This document shows positions 43,725-64,000 of a DNA stretch of 64,000 nt, one piece after another; positions within the stretch are counted from its first letter, which is position 1, and every line of letters starts with the position of its first letter. Below the pieces are notes generated by a model. That model had not been told where the DNA came from. It was given only the letters and a program-made list of their open reading frames with translations, and searched no databases. Both the position numbers and the translations under genes were made by a program. The stretch is from positions 1,612,001 to 1,676,000 of the forward strand of contig NC_012804.1 of assembly GCF_000022365.1 (NCBI RefSeq). Direction: 5' to 3'. Source of the stretch: Thermococcus gammatolerans EJ3. Its GTDB lineage: Archaea; Methanobacteriota_B; Thermococci; Thermococcales; Thermococcaceae.

Positions 43725-44531
43725 TTAGCGTCTTCTAATTGCGGCGAGAATTACTAGGATGGCCATTAAGCCGGGCCCACAGGTTTTTCCTGAGCCGGTG
43801 CTGGCAGTGGACGATGTTTTCTCTGGACTCGAAGTTTCGATTTGAGATTGGGTTCTGGTTTCCGTAGGGGTGAACTCGTAGGAGACCCTAACCTCATCGA
43901 AATACATGTGGGACTTCAATGGACTGTCGTCCCAGCCGCCTATAAGGAGCTGGAAATGGGTGGCGTCTCCAAACTCCTTTGTTGAAGCATTTTTGATCAG
44001 CCCCCCCGATTCCCAGAACTCCACGTGGTCTTTGTATAGGACGATTTTGAAGGATTTGTACTCCTTCGGGATTTTTCGAGCTTCGCTGAGTGCTCCGTCG
44101 GGTAAATCGTAGGCTATCTTGTCCGAGGGCCAGCTTATGTAGCGCATCCCCAGGTACTTTCCGGAGTCAAGGTCATAGACCCGGAACCACATCTCGGCCG
44201 TTCCTGGGTCCGTGAACTTCCACACCCCGGAGAACGTTATGGAGTCCCAGTTCTCGATCGTTATCACCTTGCTTCTGAGGAAGGCGTGCTCCTTGTGATA
44301 GTCCTTAAGCCTGAGGCCGTAGGTCTCGAAAACCGCCGCGCCGTCCTCCTCGCTGAACCTGTTACCGCTTCCCGCGATATCGAGGGTCCATTTTCCCCCT
44401 ATGCTTCCCGAACTGAAGTCATCGTGGAAGACTACCTTTTCAGAGGGGTTTCCAGCCGTAAGCCCCGAAAAGGCCAGAAGGCCTGAAAGAAACAGGAAAA
44501 GGAGCAAAAACGAACCTTTTCTCACTTTCAC
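43725..44531 (-). CDS. Secreted ConA-like-domain protein with CGP-CTERM anchor
   Basis: A 268-residue surface protein: signal peptide (about 1-27), a concanavalin A-like/laminin-G-type beta-sandwich (about 33-215), a Ser/Thr-rich likely glycosylated linker (about 218-248), and a Cys-Gly-Pro plus hydrophobic helix and RRR end (TCGPGLMAILVILAAIRRR), the CGP-CTERM sorting signal of Thermococcales. Its main domain is very close to the N-terminal domain of the giant protein next door (shared WKFTDPGTAEMWFR). GTG 44531 overlaps the giant gene's stop (GTGA); GTG 44525 is the alternative. It is therefore the second gene of a coupled pair. Confidence 0.75.
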   Translation of the reverse strand: MKVRKGSFLLLFLFLSGLLAFSGLTAGNPSEKVVFHDDFSSGSIGGKWTLDIAGSGNRFSEEDGAAVFETYGLRLKDYHKEHAFLRSKVITIENWDSITFSGVWKFTDPGTAEMWFRVYDLDSGKYLGMRYISWPSDKIAYDLPDGALSEARKIPKEYKSFKIVLYKDHVEFWESGGLIKNASTKEFGDATHFQLLIGGWDDSPLKSHMYFDEVRVSYEFTPTETRTQSQIETSSPEKTSSTASTGSGKTCGPGLMAILVILAAIRRR

Positions 44532-47500
44532 CGCCTCCTGTATACGTAAACCCCAATCAGCACCAGGATCGCAAGCGCCGCGAGGATGTAGCAGGCGGTG
44601 TTTCCTCCTTCCTGTGATGACTGTACCGGTGTTGAGGTTGTCTCGGCTGGACTTTCGGTGTGGGTCGGTGTTTCCGTTGGGGTCTCGTGTTCCTCGTGCG
44701 TTTCAACCTTCACTTTGCTCGCAACGGCGAAGAGGGAAAGCGAAGGCACGTTGACGCGGTAGTAAACGTATTCGAGGTCTTCGTACTCGAACACAGGCCC
44801 GTACTCGACCCAGCCGTTCTCGAGGTGGAGCAGGAGCAGGGAGTCCTTGCTGACGTTGCTCGCCCTGAGCCATTCCTTTGAGACCCTGAAGCGGAGCGTT
44901 GCGTTGGCTATGCTCAAGTTCTCCGGATGGGTGACGTTGAAGATGGAGTAGGTAACGTAATCGTAGCCCTCCGGCGCCTCCACGTCTCCAGGCCTCTGGT
45001 AAACCGCCACCATGCCGTTCACCTTCACCTTTGGAAGGAAGTATATCCTGTAGAGATCTGTCCTCGTCGAGACCCGCACCCATTTACCGGGCTCGGCGGA
45101 TACAATGTCCCCGTCAGCTTCCTTCTCCGTGATGGGCTTCTCCACCAGTTCCACAGTGTAGTTCTTCTTCTCCGTCAAGTTCCCGTAGAGGCAGGTCACG
45201 GTGAGGGTGTAGTTCCCCGCCTTCAGACCCCTGGTCGGTACGAAATCTCCGCTTCCGGCGAGGTTTCCGAGCTTCCAGCTCAGAGAGCATGGCTTTGACG
45301 TCTTGATAGTGACCTCCCCACCGGTGTAGAGCTTCTCGGGTGTGATGGTTACCTCCGGCGGTTCCAGGGTTCCATTCTTGGGAACGGCTATCAAGACGCT
45401 TCCGTCTTCATTGCCCTCGAGAATCTTGACGCTCCCTCCAACGGTGGTTTCCACTTTGGATGGGTCTATCCCAAAGGCCGACCTTAACTCAACCGAGCCC
45501 CTGTAAGTGCCCATCCTCTCGATGGTCGCGTTGGTGAAGAGTTTTCCAGCGTTCATTGTGATGTGTATCCCCTCATCCTCCGGCAGGGCGACGAGCTCTC
45601 CCTTAGCACTCAGGATTATTGTGTTGTCTTTAATTTCCACGTCGAGAGAATCAACCTTGGTGAGGTACGGGCTCACGAAAGCCCTGGCGAAGGCTTCGTT
45701 CCTGAAGATCGCGAAGACCATGGATGCATTCCGGGGGTCGGGTCTCAGCTCCATCCTGAGCTCGCCGAGCATCGCTCCCTTCCGAGTTCCTGTTATCTCA
45801 ACGCTCATGCCTTCGAGGGTTCCGTTGAAGAGCGGTCCAACCCTCATAAGGGGCGTTGGAACAATGTATTCCGCCCTGTAAACGTCCGGCTCACCGAAGG
45901 TGAGGCTCACGTTGCCCCAGCCGTCGAGGCTTCCCCCTTCGCCGCCGAGGAGTATTGCGGTGTCAAACTTTTGGGCCTCGACCGTGTAGTTCGCCGGCGG
46001 GTCGAGCACCTGTATGCTCATTGGAGTTGGCTGGGTCAGGGTTGCGTAGATGTTGTAGAAGGCCCACTCCCCCAACGTGATGAAAGTGTCCACCGCCGCT
46101 GCTATCGTGCCCTTTGCGTCCTTCAGGGCCTTTTTCTGCTCCTTCGGTGAGAGGGACTGGAAGGACTTCTTCTTTTTGAGCTCTTTGACTATCAACTCCT
46201 GCGCTATCTCCTTGGCGGCCTTCTTTGAGGCCTCGCTGAACTCCTCGGCCATCTCTTCCTCCGGCGATGGCGGGTTGGCGGCGTCCTGGGCTTCCTTGTA
46301 TATCTCGTTCAGGATGTCGTTGTCCACTATCTCAAGCACAGTTTCAAGGAGCAGCATCTGGAGATCCTCGTCGCCTATTATCGCCGTCCCGTACTTCTTC
46401 ACGACCTCGATTTCCTCCGGCAGGGAGAGGCTATCGAAATTGGCGACGTCCTCGTAGAAGTCCCTGTCCATGCCGTAGTTCTGCTCAAGTCTCGCCATCG
46501 TGTCGAGGTTTATCACCGCCGCGTAGGTCGCGTCGTCGGCCTCGATTAGGGCGTTGGTTTCGGGAGAGTTCTGAGCCATCCACGTGAAGTTCTTGTCCTC
46601 ATCGGGGAAGTCTATGTTCTCGACGATGTTGGTTATCTTAAGCATGCTCTTGGCCATAGCCGCCACTATGGTCCTTACCGGAACGTCAATGTCGTACACG
46701 CCAAGCGCCCCTTCTACGCCTATCGCTATCAGGTCTATCTCATTGAAGAGGAGCGAGTACTCGACACCAACGGTAACGCGGTAGTGGGGTATGACCGTTC
46801 CGGGTTCCTTGCTGTGGTCCGCTATGGCCCTGAACTCAAAACCCGGCGGGATGACGTGGTACCAGACGTAGCCCTCCGGCTCCATATCGTAGTCGCCCTC
46901 GGCGTAGTAGCTGTAGTAGATGTTATCGTTTGTGTTCTTGAGCTTTAGATAGGTCTTGTCCCCGTTCACGCCGATGACATCAACCTGAACGGGACCGACG
47001 TACTCGGTGAATGGCACGAAGCTCTTGTCGAGGGCCTTCACTGGTGTCTTCATGTAGTTTATCGGTATCGTCACGTAGTAGCCGGGCAGGGGCTGTCCGT
47101 TGATGGTCTCGTAGTACAGCACGTTGGCCGTGCTCATGTACTCGCCCGAAAAGTTCACGGGTGGGATGTACGTGGGGGGAGCGTCCAGCCACCAGGGCAT
47201 CCATGCCCCGTAAACGTACCTGACCTGGCCGGGCTTGACAAGCCTCGTCAGGTTCTTCGCCCAGACGTCGGCCATGAAGGTTTCATCGCTTCCGCCGAGG
47301 AGCGTGACGGAGTTCCTCTTGAGGAGCTTGTTGTGTAGGTTGGGGTCGCGCTCCGGGATGTAGTCCCTCACGCTGAGCGACTTCAGGTAGACCTCCCTGT
47401 CGCCGATGTTCTCGATTATGAGGTCGAAGTGGTGGCTCTCAGCCGCTTCGAGGTTTCCATCGCCGTCGCCGTCGTAGGTGTAGCTGTTCAGGCCGTAGTT

Positions 47501-50500
47501 CTTGACGCTGCACTCCCCGCTTATCTGGCACCACTGCCTCGTGTACGGGTAGGCGTCGTACCCGTTTATCTTGAAGACGGGCCCGAGGTCGAACTCTATC
47601 GTGGCGTTCCTCTCGTCCCTTAGAACCCCATCGAGGTCATAGAGCCGTATTTTGATCGGAATCTTTCCGTCGCTCGGAAGTTCATCGGGGAGAGGGTCCC
47701 ATCTCAGGGTTATCGGATCGAAGTCCGTTATGGGGATGAGGGCGTTGAAGTAGCCTTCCATGTTCCCCGGAACCGCGACGAGGAGGCTCACCTTTCCGGT
47801 ATGCCTCTCGATGTACTCGGGCAGAACGAGCTCGATCTTCGCGACGCCTGTAAGTTCCCCGATGTTCTTTAGGAGAACGCTCACGTTCGCGAAGCGCTCG
47901 TCGTATGGAATGGCAGTTCCAAAGACATCTGGATCTCTCCTATAAACGTAAACGGCCGTTGGGTGACTGATTGAGTAGGACACTATCTTTATGTCCACGT
48001 TTCTGAAGTACACCTTCCTGATGGCGCTGATGCTCGTCCCCTCGGCGTTTTTGGCGGTGAACTTCAGATAGCCCGTCCCAGTGAGGTTCTTTCCGACGGT
48101 GTCGAGCGTTATGTAGCCATAGTACTCCGTGGAATTTAGAGAGCTCTCGTTGAGAAGCTCCTCCATTCCGTTGTAGATGAGGGTGTAGTTCACGGCAACG
48201 ATGGGACTCCGCGAGCTTGCCCCTCCGGCGAGGCTTATAACGCCTTTGACGTCGCCATTGCTCATCGGGTACACGTCCAGCGAGACGCCGAGAAGGCTGG
48301 AGCCCCAGCCGGGACCCGTGCTGACCGTGCTTCCAAGCGAAACTGCTCCCCTCTCGTCGAGGATGTCGTAGTTCGTCTCCACTTCGCCGCTCGCGGTGTA
48401 CATCGTCCCGCCCGTGAAGTTTTCAACGAGCCGCGGCTCGTGGCCTCCCCAGTCGGTGTTGTTGATAGCACTAGCGCCTGTAGTCAGATGGATTCCCTTT
48501 CTATTCACCAGCGAGTTGTTCTCCAGCGTGAGAACCGCGTTTCCGGCCATAAAAATCCCGAGGTCGTTGTTCTGGACGAGGCTGTTTGTCAAGCTCACGA
48601 CTCCGCCGCTTCCTTGGGGTATTGAAATCCCCACGTTTCCTCCCGTTATAGTGTTGTGGTCTATGAGAGTACTCGTGCCTTCAGATACCCAGATGTCTAT
48701 TCCAACGTCGTTGTCGAAGAACAGGTCGTTGTAGATTGTCCCGTTAACGCTTAGAAGCTCCATACCCTTGGTGTTGTGCATAACATAGCTGCCCCTCACG
48801 TCAACAGCTGCCCTATATGTCCACAGCCCCACCTCGTTTTCTGTTATCTTGCTGGAGATCACCTTAACACTCCCACTGGAGCCCATTGGATGGAGATGAA
48901 TCCCATAATCGAAGCCGCCCATCGTGCTCTCGTTAATGATGACATCGAAGGGATTCTCCGACCAGACCCCGTAGCCGGTTCCGTCCCCTGTTATCTCGCT
49001 CTTCTCTATCTCCATGCGTCCGCTGACCTTGACGCTCCCACGGATTCTGGAGTTACTTATCCGTATCCTTGAGTAAAATGAAGAGGTCACGTTGCTGTAT
49101 ATCTCGTCGTTTGCTATGATGAGCCTCGCCGCGCTGCCGTAAACGGGCGCGTTTACGACGCTGTCCCTCAGGCCAGCAACCCCGCTTACCGTGTAGAGGG
49201 TCGCCTCGAAGGCACCGAGCTGAAGGTAGGGGTAGCGGTTCGGGCTTCTCACGTGGACGGCTATGACGTTCTCCCCGCTTCTCAGGTAGCCCGCGAGGTC
49301 GACGAAGTCTATCAGTGGAGTGGCGCTTATTCTGCCCCCGCCCCAGCCGTAGACGAATGAAAGTTGTGCCTCGTGGTTCAGCTCATCAACGACCTTCTTT
49401 CCGTTCACATATATCTCAACGCCGCTTATCGCGTAGTAGTTTAGCCACGCCTGGACTGGCAGTTTTTCAAAGTTCACGACCTTCTTCAGGTAGAGGTCCG
49501 TGAACTCCCCTACCTCGGTCCCGCTGGTAAAGCTGGAATGATACATATCCGCGGAGAACGGAGCGCTTCCGGTGCTCATGCCCGTGGTTTCTGTCGTGTA
49601 CATCCAGTTATCAGCGGGTTTGCTCATGGAGTAGAACCACTCGGCGTTTTCACCCACGGCAGTTTCCCTGACCTCAGTGTTCTCATGGCTCCAGAACATC
49701 CAGGTGCTGAAGGAGACACTCCCACCGTCTATGCGGCAGCCTGTGATCAGGGCATCGGTCGAGAGGGTTCCAAAGGTCGAGCCTTCGAGCCTTGAGTTCA
49801 GGATTACGATGTGGGACTGGCCGATGTTGCTACTCAAACCTTCAATGATTATGTTCCTGAGGACGCTCGCGTCCTTGTCCAGGTCGTCCGTCGCTGGTAT
49901 TCCGTCAACATCTTCCACGCGGAGGGTTCCTTCCGGCTTGACTTCGATCTTGCCCCCCTCAACCGTGTAGCTCCTCAGCCTTAGCTTGCCGTTCACATGG
50001 GCATAGAGGCGGCCTGCCTTTCCGCTCTCTAAGGTGCTCACCTTTCCCCCGCTGACGTAGACCATCAGATACCCAGGGTACGGCGAGACGTCGCCGGTGA
50101 GGTTAACGTCGTGAAGCTCTATCCCGCCAACGTTCTGGGCGTGGAACGCGTACTCGCTGCCGGTGACGTTGGTATCGTAGAGGTAAATCCAGTTGTTGCT
50201 CAGGTCGAGCTCGAAGTTCCTCTCCCCGTTGGATTCTATAAGCGAATCCCTGAAGCTCAGGCGAACGTTCTTCGCACAGACACCTTTCCCGTTGTTCCTC
50301 AGGGTCACGTTCTTCAGTTCCTCGGTGGCGTATCCATAGCGGGGAGCCTCAAGGCAGAGTCCGCATTCCCGGTTGTTCTCGATTAAGAGGTTCTCCATCG
50401 TCCAGTGCCAGTCAGAGGCGACCCCGAGAAACTTTATTCCGAACTCGTTGTTCCTGAAGGTGCTGTTGACTATCCGCAGCGAGCCGGGGGAGTTCCACAC

Positions 50501-53500
50501 GGGCCTGAGGTACGTGAGCCCCATCCCCCTGTGGAAGATGCTGTTCTCAACGTTCAAGCTTCCGCTCACGGTAATTCCGCCGTTTACATCACTGTTCCTC
50601 ACGGTGACGTTCGAGAGACTGAAGTTGAACTCCCCATCCAAGGTTGAGCTGATGAACTCAGCGTTGCCTGTAAAAGTTCCTCCTTCAAAGCCGCTTAGCC
50701 TTGAATCTGACACATCCATATTCCCGTTTTCGCCTGAGAGGTTTAGGGAAGTACCCCGGATAACCGAGTTCTGGAGAACCTTCAGCGTTCCGTTCACTTG
50801 CACACCATCGCCGAGGACGCTGATCTGGCAGTTCCTAAGCTCAAGGGAACCCCTGCTGGTTATCAAGATGCTCCCGTTGACGGTGTACGATTTTCCAGAG
50901 CAGAGCTGGGTGTTGTTCACCAGCCAGTCGCCCTGAACCGGCGGGCCGGAGATTCTCACTTTAAAGGCCTCAACGGTCGCGGCCCCGCAGGTGTCAACGG
51001 CCTTCACCCTTACCACGTTGTTCGCGTACGGCTGGAGATACGGCGATATGTCCATGTCCTCGCTGTAATCCATGTATTCACCGCCGTTGATTGAGACGTA
51101 GATTCCCTGCAGGTTTCCATTCTTGTCTTTGACCTCCGCGTGGAGGATAACCTCTTCGCCGGGTCTTGCCTCATCGACAATCTTCACGGCAAGCTCTGGC
51201 CTCTCGTTGCCAGAGCATACGGAGAACTCCGTCTCTGCCCTAAGTTCTCTCCCGCAAGAGTCCATAGCGGTGATAACCAGACTCAAAAGCTCCCCGCGAG
51301 CCCCTTCTTCCTTGAGTTCCTTCATAAAGGGACTCAAGTCCAGCAGAAAGCTTCCGTTCAGGCTGAGGTGGTCGTCCACCCAAGAGTAGCTCACGTTCGG
51401 CGTAAAGGGCTCCGTGTGCTCGATGTTCTCTATGGTGAACGTGTAGTTGGTTGGCGGGGCGTTGGTGTCCATCGTGAAGTTGATGGGGACGAGCAGGTTC
51501 ATCACGTTGCCCCTCGGCGAGGTTATCTCAAGGGTGCAGTCCTTGAAGCAGGGCCACTTAACGGTTATATGCCTCGTGGGTAGTGACCTGAAGTGTCCAT
51601 AGCCATCATAGACGACCGCATAGAAACTGTGCTCCCCGTTCAGATGTCCTGAGAAGGTTTTCTCGCAGTAGTAGATGCGTTTCGTGTGAAGGTGTCCCTT
51701 ATCGTCGATGTAGCTTATCCAAGCGGTCTTGACCCGAAGCCTGTAGTAATGACCGTCCCATGATAGGGTGCATGATGCGAAACTATCCGATGACTCTATC
51801 CTTACCGTTATCTCCTCCGTTTCTGGAGGGAGCTCTGCCCCATCGGATGGAGTCAGGAGAGCGTAACCGGCGTTCAGGCTCGGATACGGTATCGTCACGC
51901 TCTTCCACGTGGCCTCGCCCCGGTTTCCGTACCTATCAACTGGAACGACGGAGATGTTGTAGGTCTCTCCCGGAGTGAGTGTGAGCGTTGTCCCGTCCCA
52001 TAAGCCCGGTTCTCCCGTGAAGTTCCCGACCAGTGTCTCATTTATCCACAGCTCGGTGTGGTTGAAGTCTTCATCACTTGGGTTTATCCACCCAACTTCC
52101 GCACCGCCAGCAAACGTCGTAACGGCGAGAACTTCTATCTTTGCAGGGGGAACTGTGTCCCTAACGCGCAGGAAGAAGTACTTTCCATATGTTCCATGAC
52201 CAAGGGCATCGTATACCTCGATGTAGTACATCACGTATGCCGGTTCGCTCGTGTTGAACCGCACAAAAAATGGAACTCCACTGGTGTAATTCCCGGAGTA
52301 GAGTTCTACCCACCCGTGGTTGGGGTCGTTCGCGTCCGGGTTGAAGTAGACGTCATAGTGACCGGGATGGGGCTCTGTGACATTGATGAGCAGGCCCGCT
52401 TTAAGTCCTCTCTCTGCATGAGTTGAGTATATCCCATCCCTCTCCCATTCAAGGGTCAGGTTGACGAGCTTGTCATGAACCACCGGGGGGGCTGTGTCCG
52501 TCTCTACAACTCTCGTTTCTGTAGAGCCAATGTTCCCACCCAAATCAATCCCGTACACCCTAAAGACGTGCCTGCCATCTGGGATGGGGATGGTTATGTT
52601 CCAGTCTTCTTCGTCCCCTTCCATTGTATGGTTAACCCCGTCGAGTTCGAGTAGTGCCGAGCTGAGGCGCTCACCGGCGACGATGTTAAAGGTGAGTTGA
52701 GAGGCTCCAAGAAGGGAGTCGTTTTCCGGTGTCGGTTGAATAAACCAAAGTTCCGGAGGTGTTGTATCCACTGTAAAAGTTCTGTGCTCCGTTTCGTTGA
52801 AGTTACCTGCGGTGTCCCAAGCCCCAACATAAAACTCGTAGTGTCCGTCTTCGATGGTTAGGGAGATGCTCCAGTTCCTCCCGGAGCCCATCATCACATA
52901 CACGGCCCCATTAAAGTTCAATACCGCCCGTGAGAGGTTTTCATTCGAGAGCAGTCTGAACTTGACGCTGTTTTTGTTCAAGATTGAACCGTTTTCCGGT
53001 GTGGGCGGTAGGAGAATAAGCCTCGGGGGCGTCGTATCCCTCACCCGTATCTGCACCGTCCTCTCGCTTTCCCATCCGAATGTATCGTTGGCCCACACCT
53101 TGTACTCCACCATCCCCGGCTCATGTGCCTGGAAGACCACGCGCAACGTGGTGTTGCTGGAGTAAATGCCTTCCTCCTGAAGGACGCTGTCCCTGTAGAT
53201 TTCGTAGCTCGCGGGGTGGATATCGTGTATGCTTACCTCCACCGTCACCAAGTCCCCCTCATCCACCGTATCCGGGCAGTTTACCGTTATCTCTGGAGGA
53301 TTCCCATCCGATTCAAAGGTCAGCTCCCCGCTTTTTGCTCTAGTTCCTGCCGCGTCCATGCCGTAGATCCTGAGGACGTGATGTCCATCCGTTAGGGAGA
53401 CGTTCAGGTTCCAGCTCCTTCCAGAACCAAGCATCGTGTGGTTGACACCATCGAGTTCAAGAACCGCCAGCAAGAGTTCCCTGCTCGCCTCCGCCTCGAC

Positions 53501-56500
53501 CGTTACCCAGCTTCCCTTTATCCTCGATCCGTTCTCCGGCGCGAGAACGACTATTTTGAGTGGACTTTCGCGTTTCACAACCCTCATCAGCCACCAGCGT
53601 CTCGCAACGCCGTTCTCGTTTTCGGCCCTCACGCTGACGTTCCAGAGGCCTGGAATTAGAGTAGAGTTGGTGTAAGTCGAGCCGTTCCCTTCTTCCTCCA
53701 GAACTACCGTCCCGTTAACTGCCCATGTAACGTTTGCCACCTGGTTGAGCGCTATGGAGAACGTCACCGTTTCGTTTTGAAAAACTTCAACCTCCTCTCC
53801 TTCAGGTGATGAAGAAACGATCTTTAGTGGCTCGATAACTCTGAAACATTCTAATGGCGTGGAGTTTACATGCCCGAGTGTATCCTCGGCCTCGATTATC
53901 CAGCAGTACGTTCCTCCGGATAGTCCTTCCGTCGAGATCGTGAAGTTCGTCCAGCTCGAATACTCTGAAGTTACAACCGTTGTCCATTCTCCACTCTCGG
54001 TGGCGTTCGTCTTTAGTTTTGCGATGGAGGGATGCGCTTCGTTCCACAGGGCATATACGGTTACATCCTCCCCCTGGAGGACAGATTCACTTTCCTGACC
54101 GTAGGAGACATACCTCGGTGCCGTGGTGTCAATTTCAAATACAACTACCCCGGTTGCACCCTCATTGCCGTGCATGTCCTTCCCAGTGGCATGGAACTCG
54201 TGATTCCCATCGCCGGCGTTTAGGCTAACCCACCATTCCCTTCCAGAGCCTTCCATGGGGTAAGCGGTTTCGTCAAAGTAAAGGGTAGCCTGGCTTAGCT
54301 CCTCACTTGATGTCAGGTTAAAGACAACCAGAGAATCTCCGACGAGGCTTCCGTTTTCGGGGGTTGGTGGAAGGAACGTAAGAACCGGTGGTGTTGTGTC
54401 CGTTTTAACCGTGAGCTTCCATGAGTGACTTACTTCCCTTCCATCTCTACGGGCCACTACGGTTACGTTCCACACTCCGGGGATTAGGGTATCGTTGTGG
54501 TACTCAGAGTACGTCCCTTCTTCCGCCAGAACCTCGGTGTTGTTGACGAACCAAGTCACATTGGCGGCTTTGTTTAATTCAATTGAAAAGCTCACACTCT
54601 CATTGTCCCAGACCGTGATGTCGTTGCTCTCGGGCGAAAACGAGACTATCCTCAGCCCTTCCTCAACGCGGAAGCAGAGCTTCGGCGTTTCGTTCCCGTT
54701 CCCGAAGGTGTCGTTGGCTTTGATGTACCAGCAGAAGACCTTTCCGGCAAAGTTTTCCTCGGTACTTATCGTCCCGTTGCTCCAGCCGTTGGCGATTTGG
54801 AGCGGCACCTCGCTCCATACGAAGGTCCCATCAACGAGGGTTGCGTTCGTAACCAGAACTGCCCCCTCAAGGTGGGCATCGGTCCACTTCGCAAAGACCT
54901 TGGCTTTATCACCAGCCATCACCTCGTCCTCAGCCTGACCGTACTCCAGAAATCTGGGGGCCGTCGCGTCTATTTCCACCGTTCTCTCTTCCGTGTGGTT
55001 GGTTATCCCTTCGGCCGAGCCGTAAACGCGGAAGGCATATGTTCCGTCCGCGAGGTTTTCCTTTACCGCCCACCAGCTCCTCCCGGAACCGCTCATGCTC
55101 TCGTTGGCGCCGTTCCACTCGAGGGTGGCGTTGTCGAGGTCGAGCGAGGAACTGACGTTTATGATGACTCTCCTCACGTTGAGCATCGCCCCGTTCTCTG
55201 GAGTTGGTTCCACGAAGCTCACGGTGAGGCCCGGCTTGGGATAGACGTACCACGCCCAGAAGTGGCTCGCCGAGCCGTTGGAGTTCTCGACGACGGCCCT
55301 GACGCTGTGCTCCCCCTCCCCCACATCGGAGTTCGTGTAGGTGGATGTCTCAACGTTCTCCTCCGTCTTCACGATGCTCCCGTCGAGGTACCAGGTAACG
55401 TTTACGGTTTGGTCGACGGTTACCGAGAACTCGACGGTATCGCCGACGTAGCTCTCAACGGGGCTCTCCGGTGAGTACGAGACTATTTCAGGTGGGGAGT
55501 AAACCACGAAACAGTGAACCGGAGTGGTGCTCTCGTGATCCAGGGCATCGTATCCAGTTATCTTCCAGCAGTAAAGGTCCGGCTCATCCATGCTTATTGA
55601 GAAGTTGCTCCAGCCTTCCGTTCCTTCAAAGACCACTTCATCAAAGACCTCCCATGAGCCGGTTATGTTTGTATAAAGAACCGCCCCCCTGAGGTGGGGG
55701 TCGCTCCAGAAGGCGTGGACGTGAACTTCCCCGCCCGGCGGGATACCTTCCGCATCCTGGCCGACGTTTGAATACTCCGGGGCCTTCGTGTCAACTTCAA
55801 ATTCCCTCTCCTCGCTCGTCCCGTTGTTACCGGCCAAGTCCTGGCCGTAAACCCTGAAGGTATGGGTTCCATCAGCAACGCTCATCGTGTAGTGCCACTC
55901 CTTTCCCGAGCCGAGCATGGTATGATTTGCCCCGTCGAACTCAAGGGTCGCCATTGTGAGGTTCTCGTTCGAGGTGACGTTTATCACCACGCTTGAGTCG
56001 CCGATCAGGGAGCCATCCTTTGGCGTCGGCTCAACGAAGGTGAGGACAGGTGGGGTGATGTCGTTCTCCTCCTGGGCAAGCGGTGCGAAGATGCCCAATC
56101 CCGTCAGGTTGGCCTCGACGAGGTTCTTGTTCGTGTCCAGATGGTGCCCGCTCGTCCCATCGAGCGTCCAGCCCTCGGTGAAGTGCCATATCTGGAGGCT
56201 GTTCTCATTAAGGCCCTCAAGGGCAGAATCGTCGTAATAGAGGCCCAGATGGAGCCAGCTGTCCACGTCTATCTCAATGTATTCCCCAACGTCGCCGTAG
56301 CCCTCCGGCGGTGCCGGCCGGTTCTCCGGGGGAACTCCCCTCACGAGACAGTTTCCGGGACAGGTTACCTCCGTTGGAATCCCGTTTATCGTATTCCCGC
56401 TCAGCGAGCCGTAGAACTCTGCGATGACGATTATTGCCCAGGCGTTCGTCTCGGAGAGATTAGTCGTCAGTTCGTTGTTGTCTATAAACGAATCCCCCGC

Positions 56501-58345
56501 GAGGTACAGGTAGAGGGCATAACCGGCGTTCTCACCCACACCGCTTATCGAGATTGTGTTATCATAAACCCACGTCGAGGTGTAGAAGACCTCTATTCCG
56601 TCGGCGCTGTCGCCTCTAACCGTGACTGTGTTGTCGTGGACGTCGCTGGCTTCCCCCTCTTCCTCGTAGACGTAAATTCCAACACCCTGAAAGCCTGAAA
56701 CGCTCACGTCGTTGTCCCTGATGATGTTGCCTCCCCCATAGCTGAGATAAATTCCGTAGCGCTCACTCTCTCCGGTCTCGGTTATCGTAATCGTGTTGTC
56801 CTCAATCGTACAGTTCTCAACGCCGTCCACCCAGACCCCGATGTTCGAGACTGACGAGGGTATGACGAATCCCCTCAGCACGACGTTATTAGAGCTCACG
56901 TAGAAGACGGGCTTTCTTCCGGTATCCAACTCGGAGCCGTCGCCGGTGATGCGGGCGCTCTCGCTCGTTTCCACGGTGAGGAATTTACCTATCTCCACAC
57001 TCTCCGGATAGGTTCCAGCAAGGACTACGACCGTTCCACCTTCGATCGCGTTCTTTATTCCGTCCTGAAGCGGCGTCTCGCTGGGGTTGAGGCTCCCGCC
57101 CTCGTACCACCAGCCGCTCTCGTTTACATAAACCGTTTCAGCTGGAGTAAGCGTCGTTGCGGTGTCGTTCACCCAAGTGGTGTTGACGTTTCCCGAGTAG
57201 TCCCTCGTGAGGATTCCAATCGTGTGCGTTTCGCCGGGCAAAAGCTCGTCGAGCCACCACTCGCCCTCGTCAGTCTCCCCTTCGAACTTTCCGTCAATGT
57301 ACACCAGCGCCGTTTCAAAGTCCTCATCCTCCGGGTTGTCCCAAGTCCAGTGGATGTAGTCCGCCCCAACTTCGTGGGCCAGGTTTCTAACGGTCCCCGG
57401 CGGCGTCTCGTCTTCCCCGCTCGCATTCACGTAGAAGTTCACCTGAGCCACCCCTGTCTCGTCGCCGGCGAGGGCGTACACCACGAGGAGGTTCTCCCCG
57501 TTCTGAGCGGTTATCGTGGTGTTCGGCTCGAACGTGACGTTCTTCCCGCCGTTGAGGGAGTAGCGCCACTCGTCAACCGGCTTGTTGGCGGTGACGTTCA
57601 GGTCTATCGTTGCGGTGTTGTATGTCCTCTCCTCCGGGGAGAGAATCGTTACCTTGAGACTTTCTTCCGGCGGAGCCGCCTCCTCGTATTCGACGACTAT
57701 GTTATCGAAGTACATGTGTGAATCAGTGGGGGTGTCGTCCCAGCCGCCTATCACGAGTTGGAAATTGGTAGTGCTTTCCATCGTGATTGTTTCTATGGTC
57801 TTTACAAGGTTCCCGTTCTCCCAGTACTCAAAGTGATCCTTGTAGAGGACGATTCTGAAGGGTACGTAAGTTTGGGGTGCTGACCTGCTCTCACTTATGG
57901 TTCCTTCAACCCTGTCGTAGGCTATTTCAGTGGTCCAGCTCACGTAGCGCACGCCAAGGTATTTGCCTGAGTCTGCGTCGTAGATCCTAAACCACATCTC
58001 CGCCGTCCCAGGGTCGGTGAACTTCCACTTTCCTGAAAACACCACGTAGCTCCAGTTTTCTATTGAAATCACCGAGCTTCGGAGAAATGCATGTTCTGTA
58101 CCATAATTTCCAGTTCTTCCTCCGTGAGTGATAAACTGCGCTTCACCATTTGCCTCCGTGTAGCTGTTCCCGCTCCCCACGACGTCCTCTGTCCATTTGC
58201 TGGTGTCAAGGCTGTTGTCGTTGAAGTCGTCCTGGAAAACGGGACTTTGAGCCTGAACGGGATGGAGGAATCCAACGAAACCCACGTTTAGGTAGGAGCT
58301 GATTAAGAGGTAGAACAAAAAGAGCGCGCTCTTTTTCACTTTCAC
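44528..58345 (-). CDS. Giant modular surface protein (4605 residues)
   Basis: An extracellular membrane-anchored protein. Order: signal peptide (1-33); ConA-like domain (about 35-225); Ig- and FnIII-like domains; NosD-type right-handed beta-helix (about 405-620) with its closing domain; six TPENGS-type Ig-like domains in larger modules (about 760-1950); further Ig/FnIII domains; a long second beta-helix (about 2470-3330) interrupted by a jelly-roll resembling GH2 sugar-binding domains (IYVNGKKVVDE ... GENVIAVHV, about 2930-3050); an EF-hand-like loop DGDGDGNLEAAE (3625-3636); CARDB-like parts; a helical basic-acidic stretch near 4030-4060; a PGF-pre-PGF-like domain (about 4414-4545); Thr/Ser-rich stalk and a terminal helix ending YRRR. 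Many N-x-S/T sites. GTG 58345 has GGAGGTGAT four bases upstream. Probably an adhesin or polysaccharide-binding protein; no catalytic site identified. Confidence 0.85.
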   Translation of the reverse strand: MKVKKSALFLFYLLISSYLNVGFVGFLHPVQAQSPVFQDDFNDNSLDTSKWTEDVVGSGNSYTEANGEAQFITHGGRTGNYGTEHAFLRSSVISIENWSYVVFSGKWKFTDPGTAEMWFRIYDADSGKYLGVRYVSWTTEIAYDRVEGTISESRSAPQTYVPFRIVLYKDHFEYWENGNLVKTIETITMESTTNFQLVIGGWDDTPTDSHMYFDNIVVEYEEAAPPEESLKVTILSPEERTYNTATIDLNVTANKPVDEWRYSLNGGKNVTFEPNTTITAQNGENLLVVYALAGDETGVAQVNFYVNASGEDETPPGTVRNLAHEVGADYIHWTWDNPEDEDFETALVYIDGKFEGETDEGEWWLDELLPGETHTIGILTRDYSGNVNTTWVNDTATTLTPAETVYVNESGWWYEGGSLNPSETPLQDGIKNAIEGGTVVVLAGTYPESVEIGKFLTVETSESARITGDGSELDTGRKPVFYVSSNNVVLRGFVIPSSVSNIGVWVDGVENCTIEDNTITITETGESERYGIYLSYGGGNIIRDNDVSVSGFQGVGIYVYEEEGEASDVHDNTVTVRGDSADGIEVFYTSTWVYDNTISISGVGENAGYALYLYLAGDSFIDNNELTTNLSETNAWAIIVIAEFYGSLSGNTINGIPTEVTCPGNCLVRGVPPENRPAPPEGYGDVGEYIEIDVDSWLHLGLYYDDSALEGLNENSLQIWHFTEGWTLDGTSGHHLDTNKNLVEANLTGLGIFAPLAQEENDITPPVLTFVEPTPKDGSLIGDSSVVINVTSNENLTMATLEFDGANHTMLGSGKEWHYTMSVADGTHTFRVYGQDLAGNNGTSEEREFEVDTKAPEYSNVGQDAEGIPPGGEVHVHAFWSDPHLRGAVLYTNITGSWEVFDEVVFEGTEGWSNFSISMDEPDLYCWKITGYDALDHESTTPVHCFVVYSPPEIVSYSPESPVESYVGDTVEFSVTVDQTVNVTWYLDGSIVKTEENVETSTYTNSDVGEGEHSVRAVVENSNGSASHFWAWYVYPKPGLTVSFVEPTPENGAMLNVRRVIINVSSSLDLDNATLEWNGANESMSGSGRSWWAVKENLADGTYAFRVYGSAEGITNHTEERTVEIDATAPRFLEYGQAEDEVMAGDKAKVFAKWTDAHLEGAVLVTNATLVDGTFVWSEVPLQIANGWSNGTISTEENFAGKVFCWYIKANDTFGNGNETPKLCFRVEEGLRIVSFSPESNDITVWDNESVSFSIELNKAANVTWFVNNTEVLAEEGTYSEYHNDTLIPGVWNVTVVARRDGREVSHSWKLTVKTDTTPPVLTFLPPTPENGSLVGDSLVVFNLTSSEELSQATLYFDETAYPMEGSGREWWVSLNAGDGNHEFHATGKDMHGNEGATGVVVFEIDTTAPRYVSYGQESESVLQGEDVTVYALWNEAHPSIAKLKTNATESGEWTTVVTSEYSSWTNFTISTEGLSGGTYCWIIEAEDTLGHVNSTPLECFRVIEPLKIVSSSPEGEEVEVFQNETVTFSIALNQVANVTWAVNGTVVLEEEGNGSTYTNSTLIPGLWNVSVRAENENGVARRWWLMRVVKRESPLKIVVLAPENGSRIKGSWVTVEAEASRELLLAVLELDGVNHTMLGSGRSWNLNVSLTDGHHVLRIYGMDAAGTRAKSGELTFESDGNPPEITVNCPDTVDEGDLVTVEVSIHDIHPASYEIYRDSVLQEEGIYSSNTTLRVVFQAHEPGMVEYKVWANDTFGWESERTVQIRVRDTTPPRLILLPPTPENGSILNKNSVKFRLLSNENLSRAVLNFNGAVYVMMGSGRNWSISLTIEDGHYEFYVGAWDTAGNFNETEHRTFTVDTTPPELWFIQPTPENDSLLGASQLTFNIVAGERLSSALLELDGVNHTMEGDEEDWNITIPIPDGRHVFRVYGIDLGGNIGSTETRVVETDTAPPVVHDKLVNLTLEWERDGIYSTHAERGLKAGLLINVTEPHPGHYDVYFNPDANDPNHGWVELYSGNYTSGVPFFVRFNTSEPAYVMYYIEVYDALGHGTYGKYFFLRVRDTVPPAKIEVLAVTTFAGGAEVGWINPSDEDFNHTELWINETLVGNFTGEPGLWDGTTLTLTPGETYNISVVPVDRYGNRGEATWKSVTIPYPSLNAGYALLTPSDGAELPPETEEITVRIESSDSFASCTLSWDGHYYRLRVKTAWISYIDDKGHLHTKRIYYCEKTFSGHLNGEHSFYAVVYDGYGHFRSLPTRHITVKWPCFKDCTLEITSPRGNVMNLLVPINFTMDTNAPPTNYTFTIENIEHTEPFTPNVSYSWVDDHLSLNGSFLLDLSPFMKELKEEGARGELLSLVITAMDSCGRELRAETEFSVCSGNERPELAVKIVDEARPGEEVILHAEVKDKNGNLQGIYVSINGGEYMDYSEDMDISPYLQPYANNVVRVKAVDTCGAATVEAFKVRISGPPVQGDWLVNNTQLCSGKSYTVNGSILITSRGSLELRNCQISVLGDGVQVNGTLKVLQNSVIRGTSLNLSGENGNMDVSDSRLSGFEGGTFTGNAEFISSTLDGEFNFSLSNVTVRNSDVNGGITVSGSLNVENSIFHRGMGLTYLRPVWNSPGSLRIVNSTFRNNEFGIKFLGVASDWHWTMENLLIENNRECGLCLEAPRYGYATEELKNVTLRNNGKGVCAKNVRLSFRDSLIESNGERNFELDLSNNWIYLYDTNVTGSEYAFHAQNVGGIELHDVNLTGDVSPYPGYLMVYVSGGKVSTLESGKAGRLYAHVNGKLRLRSYTVEGGKIEVKPEGTLRVEDVDGIPATDDLDKDASVLRNIIIEGLSSNIGQSHIVILNSRLEGSTFGTLSTDALITGCRIDGGSVSFSTWMFWSHENTEVRETAVGENAEWFYSMSKPADNWMYTTETTGMSTGSAPFSADMYHSSFTSGTEVGEFTDLYLKKVVNFEKLPVQAWLNYYAISGVEIYVNGKKVVDELNHEAQLSFVYGWGGGRISATPLIDFVDLAGYLRSGENVIAVHVRSPNRYPYLQLGAFEATLYTVSGVAGLRDSVVNAPVYGSAARLIIANDEIYSNVTSSFYSRIRISNSRIRGSVKVSGRMEIEKSEITGDGTGYGVWSENPFDVIINESTMGGFDYGIHLHPMGSSGSVKVISSKITENEVGLWTYRAAVDVRGSYVMHNTKGMELLSVNGTIYNDLFFDNDVGIDIWVSEGTSTLIDHNTITGGNVGISIPQGSGGVVSLTNSLVQNNDLGIFMAGNAVLTLENNSLVNRKGIHLTTGASAINNTDWGGHEPRLVENFTGGTMYTASGEVETNYDILDERGAVSLGSTVSTGPGWGSSLLGVSLDVYPMSNGDVKGVISLAGGASSRSPIVAVNYTLIYNGMEELLNESSLNSTEYYGYITLDTVGKNLTGTGYLKFTAKNAEGTSISAIRKVYFRNVDIKIVSYSISHPTAVYVYRRDPDVFGTAIPYDERFANVSVLLKNIGELTGVAKIELVLPEYIERHTGKVSLLVAVPGNMEGYFNALIPITDFDPITLRWDPLPDELPSDGKIPIKIRLYDLDGVLRDERNATIEFDLGPVFKINGYDAYPYTRQWCQISGECSVKNYGLNSYTYDGDGDGNLEAAESHHFDLIIENIGDREVYLKSLSVRDYIPERDPNLHNKLLKRNSVTLLGGSDETFMADVWAKNLTRLVKPGQVRYVYGAWMPWWLDAPPTYIPPVNFSGEYMSTANVLYYETINGQPLPGYYVTIPINYMKTPVKALDKSFVPFTEYVGPVQVDVIGVNGDKTYLKLKNTNDNIYYSYYAEGDYDMEPEGYVWYHVIPPGFEFRAIADHSKEPGTVIPHYRVTVGVEYSLLFNEIDLIAIGVEGALGVYDIDVPVRTIVAAMAKSMLKITNIVENIDFPDEDKNFTWMAQNSPETNALIEADDATYAAVINLDTMARLEQNYGMDRDFYEDVANFDSLSLPEEIEVVKKYGTAIIGDEDLQMLLLETVLEIVDNDILNEIYKEAQDAANPPSPEEEMAEEFSEASKKAAKEIAQELIVKELKKKKSFQSLSPKEQKKALKDAKGTIAAAVDTFITLGEWAFYNIYATLTQPTPMSIQVLDPPANYTVEAQKFDTAILLGGEGGSLDGWGNVSLTFGEPDVYRAEYIVPTPLMRVGPLFNGTLEGMSVEITGTRKGAMLGELRMELRPDPRNASMVFAIFRNEAFARAFVSPYLTKVDSLDVEIKDNTIILSAKGELVALPEDEGIHITMNAGKLFTNATIERMGTYRGSVELRSAFGIDPSKVETTVGGSVKILEGNEDGSVLIAVPKNGTLEPPEVTITPEKLYTGGEVTIKTSKPCSLSWKLGNLAGSGDFVPTRGLKAGNYTLTVTCLYGNLTEKKNYTVELVEKPITEKEADGDIVSAEPGKWVRVSTRTDLYRIYFLPKVKVNGMVAVYQRPGDVEAPEGYDYVTYSIFNVTHPENLSIANATLRFRVSKEWLRASNVSKDSLLLLHLENGWVEYGPVFEYEDLEYVYYRVNVPSLSLFAVASKVKVETHEEHETPTETPTHTESPAETTSTPVQSSQEGGNTACYILAALAILVLIGVYVYRRR
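52490..56060 (-). repeat. Tandem Ig-like modules inside the giant gene
   Basis: The motif [PT]xPENG-S followed by a G-S-G-R-x-W core and a closing DTTPP linker recurs six times. Measured at the same codon, copies 1-4 lie 274, 280 and 274 codons apart, each module adding two further beta domains (one with Trp/Cys YCWxI, one with NVTW); copies 4-5 are 180 and 5-6 are 90 codons apart, i.e. the same unit with two, one and no accessory domain. The amino-acid sequences have diverged, so the array is old, not a recent tandem expansion. Confidence 0.75.
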
Positions 58346-58393
58346 GTGGATCACCTCCAACGCAAGAAGAGCCGGGCTGCACAGACACGGGAG

Positions 58394-58486
58394 GGTTATT
58401 AGAACCGCACGTTATTAGAGCCCACAGTCCGGGCTCCCCTTACGTTCGTGTTCAAGGTTAGTCCTTCAAGGTATAATAATTTTTTG
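58394..58486 (-). promoter_or_regulatory. Promoter and long structured leader of the giant gene
   Basis: TATA AAAAAATTATTATACC (58471-58486, minus) predicts a start near 58450 and a leader of roughly 100 nt, unusual here. The leader has a hairpin GAGCCC/GGGCTC (58417-58435, 7-base loop) and a direct repeat GTTATTAGA (plus-strand reading) at 58394 and 58410, 16 bases apart. Region 58487-58586 is AT-rich without genes. Confidence 0.5.
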
Positions 58487-58624: not shown

Positions 58625-60919
58625 TTAATTGGCTTGCGGTGCTGTAGTGGTTTCTTCGAGGAGCGACGTGTCGAAGACCTTTCCAAGTTCCTCCATAACA
58701 GCATCGTAGAGCCAGGGGTATTCTTTAAGGTGTTCTCTACCTTTCTTGAGGTATTCGCTGCCATCTTGGCCCCTGAGTATTTTAGACGTGCCGAGGAAGA
58801 TGTAGCCAGCCCACCCTAGAGGATATCCTGTACCGTGAGCTATCTTTATCATTTCCCTCGCGTCTTTTTCTGCTCTTTCAGCATCGTCCAGAGCTATCCA
58901 CGAGACGCAACGGTAGGCTAGGGTATCCACAGTCCTTCTGTAGTTTCTGATCCTCGTGAAGTACTCTACTGCCCTAGTGCCGTAGGAAATGGCCTTCTCA
59001 TAGTTCCCGAGTATATAGTGGCACTTTGATAACTCCATATAGGCTAGGTGTTCGAGGGAGAGCATCCCATAGACCCTTGATACCTCGAGACTTTCCTTGT
59101 AGTACCTCACAGCTTTTTCGGGCATCTCCATTTCGAGGTATATATCACCTATGTGGAGAAGCACGAGCGCCTCATTCTCAGGCAGATTGGCTTGCCTCCG
59201 TGAGATCTCAAGCTCCTTAAACGCGCTCTCCAGGGCCTTTTCGGGCCGTTCCTGGTAGTACTCGTACTTTGTTTTCTCCATGTAGTACCACAGCCAAACG
59301 TCCGGATCGTCCAGTTCTTCCGCGAGCCTCTGCAGCTTTTCAAGATACTCTTCGGCTTTTTCAAATTCCTCCATCGAGATCAGTACGTCGGCGAGGATGC
59401 CCACGACCTCCGCCCTAAATATACCCTCGACCTCGTACTCGACCTCCATTAAAATATCCCGAGCCTTCTGGAAAAAGCCTGTGGTGAAGTATATTATTCC
59501 CAGCTCGGCCTTGGCATAGGGGTTGTCGCTTACTTGAATGAGTATCCTCCGGTACGTTTTTGGGAAGTCCCCTACCACGTGCTTGAACTTCTTCAGCCTC
59601 AACAGCACTAGGTCTTTGATTTTGTAATAGGCACCGGCTTTGAGTGTGTACTCGAAGGCCTTAAGGAAGTCGTGCGGGTTATTTTTTTCGAGGAGGTAGT
59701 CTGCATAGGTCAGGTAATATTCCTTGGAGTTCACCGATTCGGCCTCCTTTAAAAAGCCCCTCAGCATATCGTGGACGAAGTAGTTTCTTCCCCTCCTCTC
59801 CACCAGACCCTTCCTGAGGAGGGAATGGAGAACGGGGAAAGCGTTCTTTTTGCCGTAAAGGGTCTTTATGGCATCGTATTCAAGCGGCCCCTCAAACAGG
59901 CTGAGAATCGACAGCATTCGCCTTTCGTCCGCGCTGAGGGACTGGTATATCTCCATGAACAGGAACTCGAAGAAGTTCTCCCTAACTACCTCCTCGCTCA
60001 GTTCGGGGCTCTCAAGGAGGAGTATGATGGCCAGTGGGTGGCCCCGGGTTATCCTGTATATCCTCGCGAACTCCTCGACCGAGACCTCGCCCCGGACGTT
60101 CTTGGCTAGTTCGTACGCTTCCCTGGGCTTCAGACCGCCGAGGTTTATGTAGACCACACCTTCTATGCCCAGCATCGGTTTGATCCTCGATGCAACGGCC
60201 ACGGTGCCGTTCCTAAGCTTCCCTGCAAGGTACGTCAGAAGCCTCTTCACGGCATCGTCTTGGCACTTGTGGAGGTCGTCTATTATGACGACGCTTTCTG
60301 TTTCCTCCAACCCGTCCAAGATAAGCTCGAAGATTTCCCTCTCTCCCTTTCCGCCACTTCGGAGGTATTCGAGAAGTGCCGTGTACCCGAGGGAGTTGAG
60401 GTAAAGCCCCAGCTGCCACGCGAGGTATTCCATGCTCTCCGACCCGTCTAAGGTGTACCAGAACGCCTCAGGAAAGGCCTTCGCCAGCAGGCTGGTCTTT
60501 CCTATTCCTGCTATCCCATACACAACAACCAGCTTTCCCTTCGAGCTCCTGAGGATCTCTATCTCCTCACCCCTTCCAACGAAGAACTTAACTTCTGGAA
60601 CCTCTCCCGCGGTTATGGGGACTGTATAGTCCTCCTTCTCCCCGATATCAACCTGCACCTTTTCGGGGAGGAAGTCTATCTTCACTTCATCCACTTTGAG
60701 GGAGTACACCCTCACGTTTCTATCGCCCAGCCGAACCCATCTCCCTTCAACGAGGCCGAGCTTTTCGAGCTTCTTAAGCCTCCTAGAAACGTCGCTCTCG
60801 CTCCTATGAAGGAGTCTTGCGAGCTCCCTCGGGTGAAAAGAGCCCGACCTGAGCAGGGACAGTATCTGGAGGTTTGTCTCGCTGGAGAGAACTTTAAGCA
60901 GGGAGATTGGCTCCACCAC
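58625..60919 (-). CDS. STAND/MalT-like regulator: winged helix + NTPase + TPR
   Basis: A 764-residue protein. Residues 1-80 form an ArsR-type winged helix (ETNLQILSLLRSGSFHPRELARLLHRSESDVSRRLKKLE). An NTPase of the STAND class follows with Walker A VVYGIAGIGKT (about 132-142) and Walker B SVVIIDDLHKC, plus a winged-helix/GxP-like hinge region (ITRGHPLAIILLL). From about 430 to the end, TPR repeats (e.g. AVRYYKESLEVSRVYGMLSLEHLAYMELSKCHY) would sense a ligand or partner. This is the layout of a signal-triggered, ATP-dependent transcription regulator. The true start is GTG 60919 or 60916: the longer frame includes the TATA box (60945-60956). It lies between two large surface-protein genes and may control them (inference). 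Confidence 0.82.
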   Translation of the reverse strand: MVEPISLLKVLSSETNLQILSLLRSGSFHPRELARLLHRSESDVSRRLKKLEKLGLVEGRWVRLGDRNVRVYSLKVDEVKIDFLPEKVQVDIGEKEDYTVPITAGEVPEVKFFVGRGEEIEILRSSKGKLVVVYGIAGIGKTSLLAKAFPEAFWYTLDGSESMEYLAWQLGLYLNSLGYTALLEYLRSGGKGEREIFELILDGLEETESVVIIDDLHKCQDDAVKRLLTYLAGKLRNGTVAVASRIKPMLGIEGVVYINLGGLKPREAYELAKNVRGEVSVEEFARIYRITRGHPLAIILLLESPELSEEVVRENFFEFLFMEIYQSLSADERRMLSILSLFEGPLEYDAIKTLYGKKNAFPVLHSLLRKGLVERRGRNYFVHDMLRGFLKEAESVNSKEYYLTYADYLLEKNNPHDFLKAFEYTLKAGAYYKIKDLVLLRLKKFKHVVGDFPKTYRRILIQVSDNPYAKAELGIIYFTTGFFQKARDILMEVEYEVEGIFRAEVVGILADVLISMEEFEKAEEYLEKLQRLAEELDDPDVWLWYYMEKTKYEYYQERPEKALESAFKELEISRRQANLPENEALVLLHIGDIYLEMEMPEKAVRYYKESLEVSRVYGMLSLEHLAYMELSKCHYILGNYEKAISYGTRAVEYFTRIRNYRRTVDTLAYRCVSWIALDDAERAEKDAREMIKIAHGTGYPLGWAGYIFLGTSKILRGQDGSEYLKKGREHLKEYPWLYDAVMEELGKVFDTSLLEETTTAPQAN

Positions 60920-60944
60920 GATCCCCCAAACAAAATAGGAGAAG

Positions 60945-60956
60945 GGGGTATAAATC
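60945..60956 (-). promoter_or_regulatory. TATA box of STAND regulator gene
   Basis: Minus-strand GATTTATACCC about 26-37 bases above GTG 60919; a start about 25 bases on would give an almost leaderless mRNA. Confidence 0.6.
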
Positions 60957-60967
60957 ACTTCCGAGAC

Positions 60968-63900: not shown

Positions 63901-64000
63901 CCAGCAGTACAGTGCTGTTAACGATGGGCTCCCCTATGACCTTCACCACTGGAACCGGCGGGCGGTTTGCCTTAAGGATGTAGAACTCCGGGGTTCCGAG
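60968..64000 (-). CDS. Large PKD/Ig-type extracellular protein (C-terminal 1010 residues)
   Basis: The frame is open to the window edge, so the N-terminus and any signal peptide lie outside. Visible parts from the N-side: PKD (SYDPDGRIVRYAWIIGNESF), a CARDB-like domain (TNTGDLAGVYNATLRLDDEP), a roughly 120-residue unknown domain, Ig-like domains, a second PKD (YLWNFGDGSTSDETNPTHVY), a second copy of the unknown domain, Ig-like and two more beta domains. The last 90 residues are helical and charged, with no membrane segment or CGP-CTERM, unlike the giant gene. Many N-glycosylation sequons. Likely an exported binding or sensing protein; function unknown. Confidence 0.75.
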   Translation of the reverse strand, partial: LGTPEFYILKANRPPVPVVKVIGEPIVNSTVLLDGSLSYDPDGRIVRYAWIIGNESFEGPAVNYTFTEPGNHTVVLTVWDDENESASVREVVYVYTSAMFKVTGEISPEWGVVPFTLSLTVNVTNTGDLAGVYNATLRLDDEPIAWRTVEVGPGETANVTFRVEITEAGKHTLSVDGETWTVTAYRNVSREELEAFTYSRDFGDGYTRWEEFRQDFVDWATGVLANVSLPETGLEVVLNESVSEWTLINYTESLTTERGWINATYERNATIVGITGFNYTTVRITQRVTLFANTSKKADTTPPEISVSPASGVYEEIPVLNVTVIDESNVTVWVEVEGARENMTLVEKSGNLSLWSGRPSLSVGNNTVVVVAEDVFGNCANETLWLYLNPRAPLITIESPAEKIYNSRTIWFNYTVLDDDLLGVKAYLDGRLISTEPVAGLNLSLDYGGHNFTVVAWDVSNNVSETVTFRVNEPPTVNFTWDAEHLTVAFSALADDPDGIAGYLWNFGDGSTSDETNPTHVYAAGGVYTVTLTVWDAYNLSATASKTIEVFALVNESREESYTFTKDFGFYNTISWEPFKGEFEAWKEEVLRSINVLVDEFEEVWEIETGNWSIVSRAESLVPGSGYGWINATYLRVVRVRGIIDHNETLLRITQSVALFANASNLRDTEPPSLKILYPENKTYDHNVTEIRVEASDSSGVQVVFAEVDGRCVSLHQADGIWRAAVNLGDGHHRIVVTAVDIWDNTRSKVVEFTVNTSVEVIYINGTEVIRVPGEIKSRVKFKGDALRVILGLNGTRTYFHFPPGGRVVIDECLKETPWLVISNGMKMVGISIKEGERREGAFKHRTKTIRAEVTGEGYAVLLMPLEGMRVVSVTLEKDGITYKLSEGMGSVGYYGALGEYVYVLIHGASTVHIQLESPARRFDPYWAWFLLGMKWEKRYLELKDTFEAIEPRAEEEKILEKALALHRKAEEYYLFGKMYCLHDPMRYAIYMRRAYFLEKRALKLLMRAL
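61960..63420 (-). repeat. Duplicated PKD-flanking domain in partial surface gene
   Basis: Two copies of an unassigned domain about 1.1 kb (365 codons) apart: YSRDFG ... GWINATYERN ... RITQRVTLFANTS (63420-63120) and FTKDFG ... GWINATYLRV ... RITQSVALFANAS (62330-62010). Nucleotide similarity persists around CTCTGGGTTAT, so the duplication is visible at DNA level. Confidence 0.7.

Follow-up and report, generated by a model that had tools for sequence, protein, structure and literature searches.

The window, which is the whole stretch of 64,000 nucleotides analysed here (genome G000, coordinate label G000:C1), holds a gene for a protein of 4605 residues, and it raises the question of what an archaeal cell uses such a giant for. 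In a preliminary description of this DNA the product was taken for a cell-surface fibre for attachment or polymer binding. The fibre part of that proposal stood, and the predicted anatomy and the conservation of the protein make a surface fibre a well-supported reading. Attachment and binding did not attain the same standing; they are suggested by the carbohydrate-active ConA fold of one domain. The preliminary description gave no strand, and it did not include the exchange of halves, the single conserved accessory site, the ConA-CGP gene that overlaps the stop codon or the neighbouring second giant.

The giant gene and its reading frame

The gene occupies 44528..58345 on the minus strand. The longest open frame (58360-44528, minus strand) gives 4610 residues if counted from a TTG codon. 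Translation probably starts five codons inside the frame, at GTG 58345, 2 nt behind a strong ribosome-binding site, the Shine-Dalgarno sequence GGAGGTGATCC (58348..58358, minus strand); translation from this codon to the stop at 44528-44530 yields the 4605 residues first reported. A possible TATA-type promoter element, ATTATTATA, was read from the sequence at 58472..58480 (minus strand).

Frameshifts that split the frame into several genes were the main objection foreseen in the preliminary description, and the homologues answer it. The frame was found to be single, and homologous single open frames of 4049-4692 aa were found in 12 other Thermococcales genomes (13 including the present one). 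The homologues of G031 and G034 are split by a frameshift, near L037 9269-9272 in G031 and near L017 7179-7242 in G034; these two are pseudogenes or carry sequencing errors. The gene is under purifying selection within an allele class, dN/dS being mostly 0.1-0.3. A chance open frame is thus excluded by the 12 intact and two frameshifted homologues together with these ratios.

The size originally described was confirmed; ‘exceptionally large for an archaeon’ was an overstatement, since a second giant, of 4490 aa, lies next door. At the edge of the window, a PKD protein (60968-63949, minus strand) corresponds to the last 993 residues of this second giant, which has ten CARDB stretches and runs on to G000:C1:1686440 (L053 2968-16440). 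Only one gene stands between the two giants. It encodes a STAND-type regulator of 777 aa (58625-60958, minus strand) with HTH, ATPase and TPR parts, and it adjoins the PKD/CARDB giant. Homologues of the regulator were found in 31 of 94 Thermococcales genomes, in two of which (G014 and G084) they lie beside large PKD/CARDB-type proteins. The frame upstream of the same regulator in G084 (L046) is of this type, has 4646 aa and shows weak Ig similarity to the first giant. A linkage between the regulator and the first giant was considered and rejected, because the regulator is often absent or located elsewhere in giant-carrying genomes and adjoins a PKD/CARDB protein in the two genomes just named.

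Domain organization

All coordinates in this section are on the minus strand. Residues 1-34 (58244..58345) form a putative signal peptide with the conserved motif YLLxSSYLNVGFVGF, as read from the translations. They are followed by a ConA-like domain of GH16 fold (residues 35-232; 57650..58243). This domain had no sequence family match. Searches of PDB sequences returned nothing significant and gave no solved relative by sequence. The fold of the domain, proposed before, was borne out by a structure model (pLDDT 85) that matched GH16 laminarinases in Foldseek (E 5e-9, TM-score 0.67). The catalytic motif ExDxxE is absent from all ConA domains inspected (23/23). Ig/FN3-like modules, recognized by domain scans and an internal Ig profile, occupy residues 233-410 (57116..57649) and precede a first parallel beta-helix of NosD type with its cap (residues 411-760; 56066..57115). 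Domain matches to both NosD and parallel beta-helices were obtained here, with a NosD (TIGR04247) score of 40.4 bits against a cut-off of 300; the beta-helix fold is all that this part has in common with the NosD copper-insertion protein.

An Ig-like array extends over residues 761-2440 (51026..56065). It consists of three a-b-c super-repeats (residues 762-1591) and then of single modules, which the internal Ig profile assigned to type a; the number of modules differs between genomes. The second, right-handed beta-helix (residues 2450-3340; 48326..50998) was matched by PF13229 in five stretches, and carries a jelly-roll-like insert at about residues 2948-3052 (49190..49504). The GH2-like nature claimed for this insert was only weakly borne out, by Bac_rhamnosid_N in six of nine members (best E 0.009) and by GH2_N in one (E 0.11).

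The C-terminal core, or C-core (residues 3340-4460; 44966..48328), belongs to no Pfam family and occurs in two allele classes about 40% identical to each other. Its model (pLDDT 51), for which Foldseek returned generic beta-sandwiches, is too poor to interpret. The EF-hand-type Ca loop within it, DGDGDGNLEAAE (residues 3625-3636; 47438..47473), is a perfect sequence match and is kept in all 13 giants as well as in relatives from Archaeoglobales and Micrarchaeota. A helical segment was predicted, by a low-confidence model, at about residues 3859-4104 (46034..46771). Next comes a PGF-pre-PGF domain (residues 4460-4542; 44720..44968), the sole copy in the genome, whose TIGR04213 score of 40.2 bits lies above the curated cut-off of 28. 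The tail sequences indicate a Thr/Ser/Pro-rich spacer, a membrane helix and an RRR end (44531..44698); 14 of 15 giants have a tail of YY type, and the present one has CY. No PGF motif was found ahead of the terminal helix in these tails (n = 15), nor was there an NCBIfam PGF-CTERM match, and the CGP motif is absent from this position of the giant. The genome contains two archaeosortase-family genes.

Thus the ConA-like domain, the NosD beta-helix, the tandem Ig modules, the second long beta-helix, the EF-hand-type loop and the PGF-pre-PGF-like end of the preliminary description were all recovered. The domain HMM scan suggested there gave the NosD, PF13229 and PGF-pre-PGF matches; structure prediction in pieces was informative for the ConA domain and uninformative for the C-core.

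This anatomy could also be that of a polysaccharide-degrading surface enzyme platform, in which the beta-helices would be lyase-like and the ConA-like domain a GH16 relative. The laminarinase-like fold of that domain is in keeping with such a function, and beta-helix folds are frequent in polysaccharide lyases. The absence of ExDxxE from all 23 ConA domains inspected argues against it, as do the beta-helices, which match generic beta-helix and NosD families only, and we regard an enzyme platform as quite unlikely. GH16 activity as such was rejected on account of the missing catalytic motif.

Occurrence and genomic site

Strong matches to an 899-aa N-terminal query were obtained in 19 of 94 Thermococcales genomes, and C-core matches in 17 of the 94, one of them of another genus. 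The giant gene is accessory and is found at a single conserved site. It usually sits between TatD-like and DHPS-like genes, in some genomes with a DapA-like gene as well, and the TatD and DHPS-like genes adjoin in most of the giant-free genomes examined. In the source genome the upstream neighbours are instead the STAND-type regulator and the 4490-residue CARDB/PKD protein. The giants of G013 and G031 have no ConA domain, and a search with the domain found none in G010; the domain is therefore not essential to the role of the protein. Its absence from no fewer than two giants shows that the tip is open to loss or replacement.

Outside Thermococcales, C-core relatives with 26-27% identity were found in metagenome assemblies labelled as Archaeoglobales and Micrarchaeota. 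The ConA domain is retained in the relative from Micrarchaeota, and the relative from Archaeoglobales has a similar YY-helix tail (L051 1-11886; L052 4442-11776). Viral contigs scanned with C-core and N-half alignments held no relatives. There was no match in 23 genomes of one other archaeal phylum, a sample that carries no weight.

A structural part of the S-layer lattice, with C-half classes that match S-layer types, might likewise be a large extracellular protein with a membrane-proximal stalk. The gene is missing from most genomes, however, which makes such a part highly improbable. A correspondence between S-layer type and C-half class was rejected: class A co-occurs with both PF05124 S-layer groups, and by PF05124 the class B genome G005 groups with the class A genomes G000, G009, G027 and G094.

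Exchange of blocks between species

The giant is a mosaic: the history of its N-terminal half conflicts with that of its C-terminal half, which comprises 2700 residues. Identity along the gene separates the two C-half classes (A and B, ~40% identical), and the N-halves cross these classes. Thus the N-half of G004 matches that of G026 at 97% identity, and the C-core at 38%; for G000 and G013 the values are 90-96% and 41%, and their neighbouring DHPS-like proteins are 85% identical. Both pairs are grouped by the N-half tree and separated by the C-core tree, and this conflict is fully supported. When each grouping was imposed on the other half, AU tests rejected it (p 1e-4 and 3e-6; log-likelihood differences 491 and 380), with p-values that are somewhat optimistic, as the groups were picked after the identities were known, and log-likelihood differences that are large.

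For the pair G000 and G013, most of the N-half has dS values of 0.13-0.42, and the C-half has 1.1-2.7. The neighbouring gene, with dS 1.04, is more diverged than most of the N-half, which points to a recent transfer of this half. One Ig block of 276 residues inside it, with dS 2.5, behaves separately. The ConA domain is also exchanged independently: between G004 and G026, dS is 1.27 in this domain and ~0.1 directly after it. One pair has nucleotide break points at residue 231, which is the ConA end, and at residue 1877; another pair has one at residue 1312. Both 1877 and 1312 lie near Ig module edges. Tip, N-half and C-half have thus been passed between species, with module boundaries as the joints. 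The giant of G001 resembles another chimera: its Ig residues 1900-2440 are of class B, and the sequence after them is of class A.

The divergence of the two C-half classes and the free exchange of N-halves would suit a fibre that recognizes partners or kin, telling self from non-self, in which the allele combinations produced by block exchange decide aggregation or DNA exchange. A similar role has been proposed for VARTIG, a recombining Ig surface system of the same order (PMC8416519). If the C-terminus is the anchor, however, the variable half is on the membrane side, where partner contact is least expected, and no genome-wide type showed a link; such a fibre is rather unlikely. In an allotype-like form of recognition, which we hold to be unlikely, two old classes of lower stalk would be maintained in Thermococcales, and reshuffled tips, N-halves and C-halves would decide which cells or surfaces are bound. 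If this reading were true, the presence of the core in assemblies of Archaeoglobales and Micrarchaeota would make it a contact system of wider range among archaea.

The companion gene and a deletion-like remnant

A companion gene of 268 aa (43725..44531, minus strand) begins where the giant ends, its start overlapping the stop of the giant (GTGA). It encodes the same ConA-like domain as the giant, followed by a CGP-CTERM-type tail (TCGP, helix, RRR). The tail scored 19.2 bits with TIGR04288, against a cut-off of 21, and CGP is present in 7/7 homologues. Of 15 giant loci, six have a ConA-CGP neighbour; it lies downstream of the giant at four of them and upstream at two. G014, which has no giant, carries at the site a 279-aa gene (L022 16405-17244) whose start resembles that of the G001 giant and whose end resembles that of the companion. 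Recombination between the two ConA domains, with deletion of the giant, would produce such a gene; the reverse order would be possible too.

A very large surface protein with exchanged parts, next to a gene that repeats one of its domains, is reminiscent of contact-dependent toxin delivery of the polymorphic-toxin kind. The domain repeated is the N-terminal one, though, and no immunity gene was recognized; nor was a toxin family found in the C-core, and the C-terminus is a membrane anchor behind the PGF-pre-PGF domain, not a swappable toxin. We consider toxin delivery very unlikely.

A proposed surface fibre

The reading that we prefer, and hold to be probable with real room for doubt, is an adhesive fibre that is secreted, held in the membrane at its C-terminus and tipped by a lectin domain at its N-terminus. 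The anchor, surface location, orientation, adhesion and ligand of the fibre are what we infer. The giant would be exported by the Sec pathway and anchored in the membrane by its C-terminal helix and Arg cluster, and the Thr/Ser/Pro-rich spacer would take the fibre through the S-layer. A stiff lower stalk may be built from the C-core, with its Ca loop, and the second beta-helix. The Ig array, being of variable module number, would determine the reach, and the first beta-helix and the ConA-like lectin domain would be the outer tip; its ligand may be a glycan or polysaccharide carried by surfaces, by particles or by other cells. By the usual dimensions of Ig modules and beta-helices, the fibre could have a length of the order of 100 nm.

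Comparison with known systems

The closest comparison is with VARTIG (arCOG07710), the hypervariable Ig surface proteins of Thermococcales that recombine between species (PMC8416519). Like these, the giant is a large secreted Ig-domain protein of patchy distribution in Thermococcales that recombines in place between species, so the principle of inter-species recombination, established by VARTIG for Ig surface proteins of this order, is not new (PMC8416519). VARTIG is far shorter, the Ig domains of the one mapped ending near residue 952, and its end is D[ND]NxxxG[GD] (PMC8416519), whereas the giant ends in YY-helix-RRR (15 tails read). VARTIG varies in its last Ig domain; in the giant there are two classes of the C-half as a whole, and the N-half moves as one block, so that the swapped block measures ~2700 residues plus the N-half. 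VARTIG genes adjoin arrays of small genes, several beside an RNase III-like gene (PMC8416519). The giant occupies the TatD-DHPS site, and its flanks (TatD, DHPS-like, DapA-like and ConA-CGP genes) include no array of small variable membrane-protein genes. Differing in tail, last-Ig variability and gene array, the giant is not a VARTIG member and represents a different family.

PGF-pre-PGF proteins of methanogens and haloarchaea (TIGR04213) likewise have this domain near the C-terminus and then a membrane helix; unlike them, the giant has no PGF-CTERM signal and is the only such protein in its genome. The companion, which has the ConA domain of the giant, ends in TCGP, a helix and RRR and scores just under the cut-off for the CGP-CTERM proteins of Thermococcales (TIGR04288); the giant lacks the CGP motif. 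Among archaeal huge proteins (PMC11573180), halomucins are similarly very long and extracellular, a likeness by description; the giant is under the 5000-residue limit of that survey (PMC11573180).

All parts of the giant are of known kinds. A search of the literature outside subscription journals turned up no description of the family itself, of the scale of its exchanged blocks, of its two C-half classes or of its wider range among archaea. The C-core, without a Pfam family, extends to assemblies of two other archaeal lineages. A role is known for few surface proteins of archaea, and near-identical tip halves on very different stalk halves in related hyperthermophiles amount to a natural experiment. 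Chimeras, empty sites and the deletion-like remnant can all be compared, so that two questions become open to test: what part of such a giant adhesin determines its specificity, and how recombination between species remodels archaeal surfaces.
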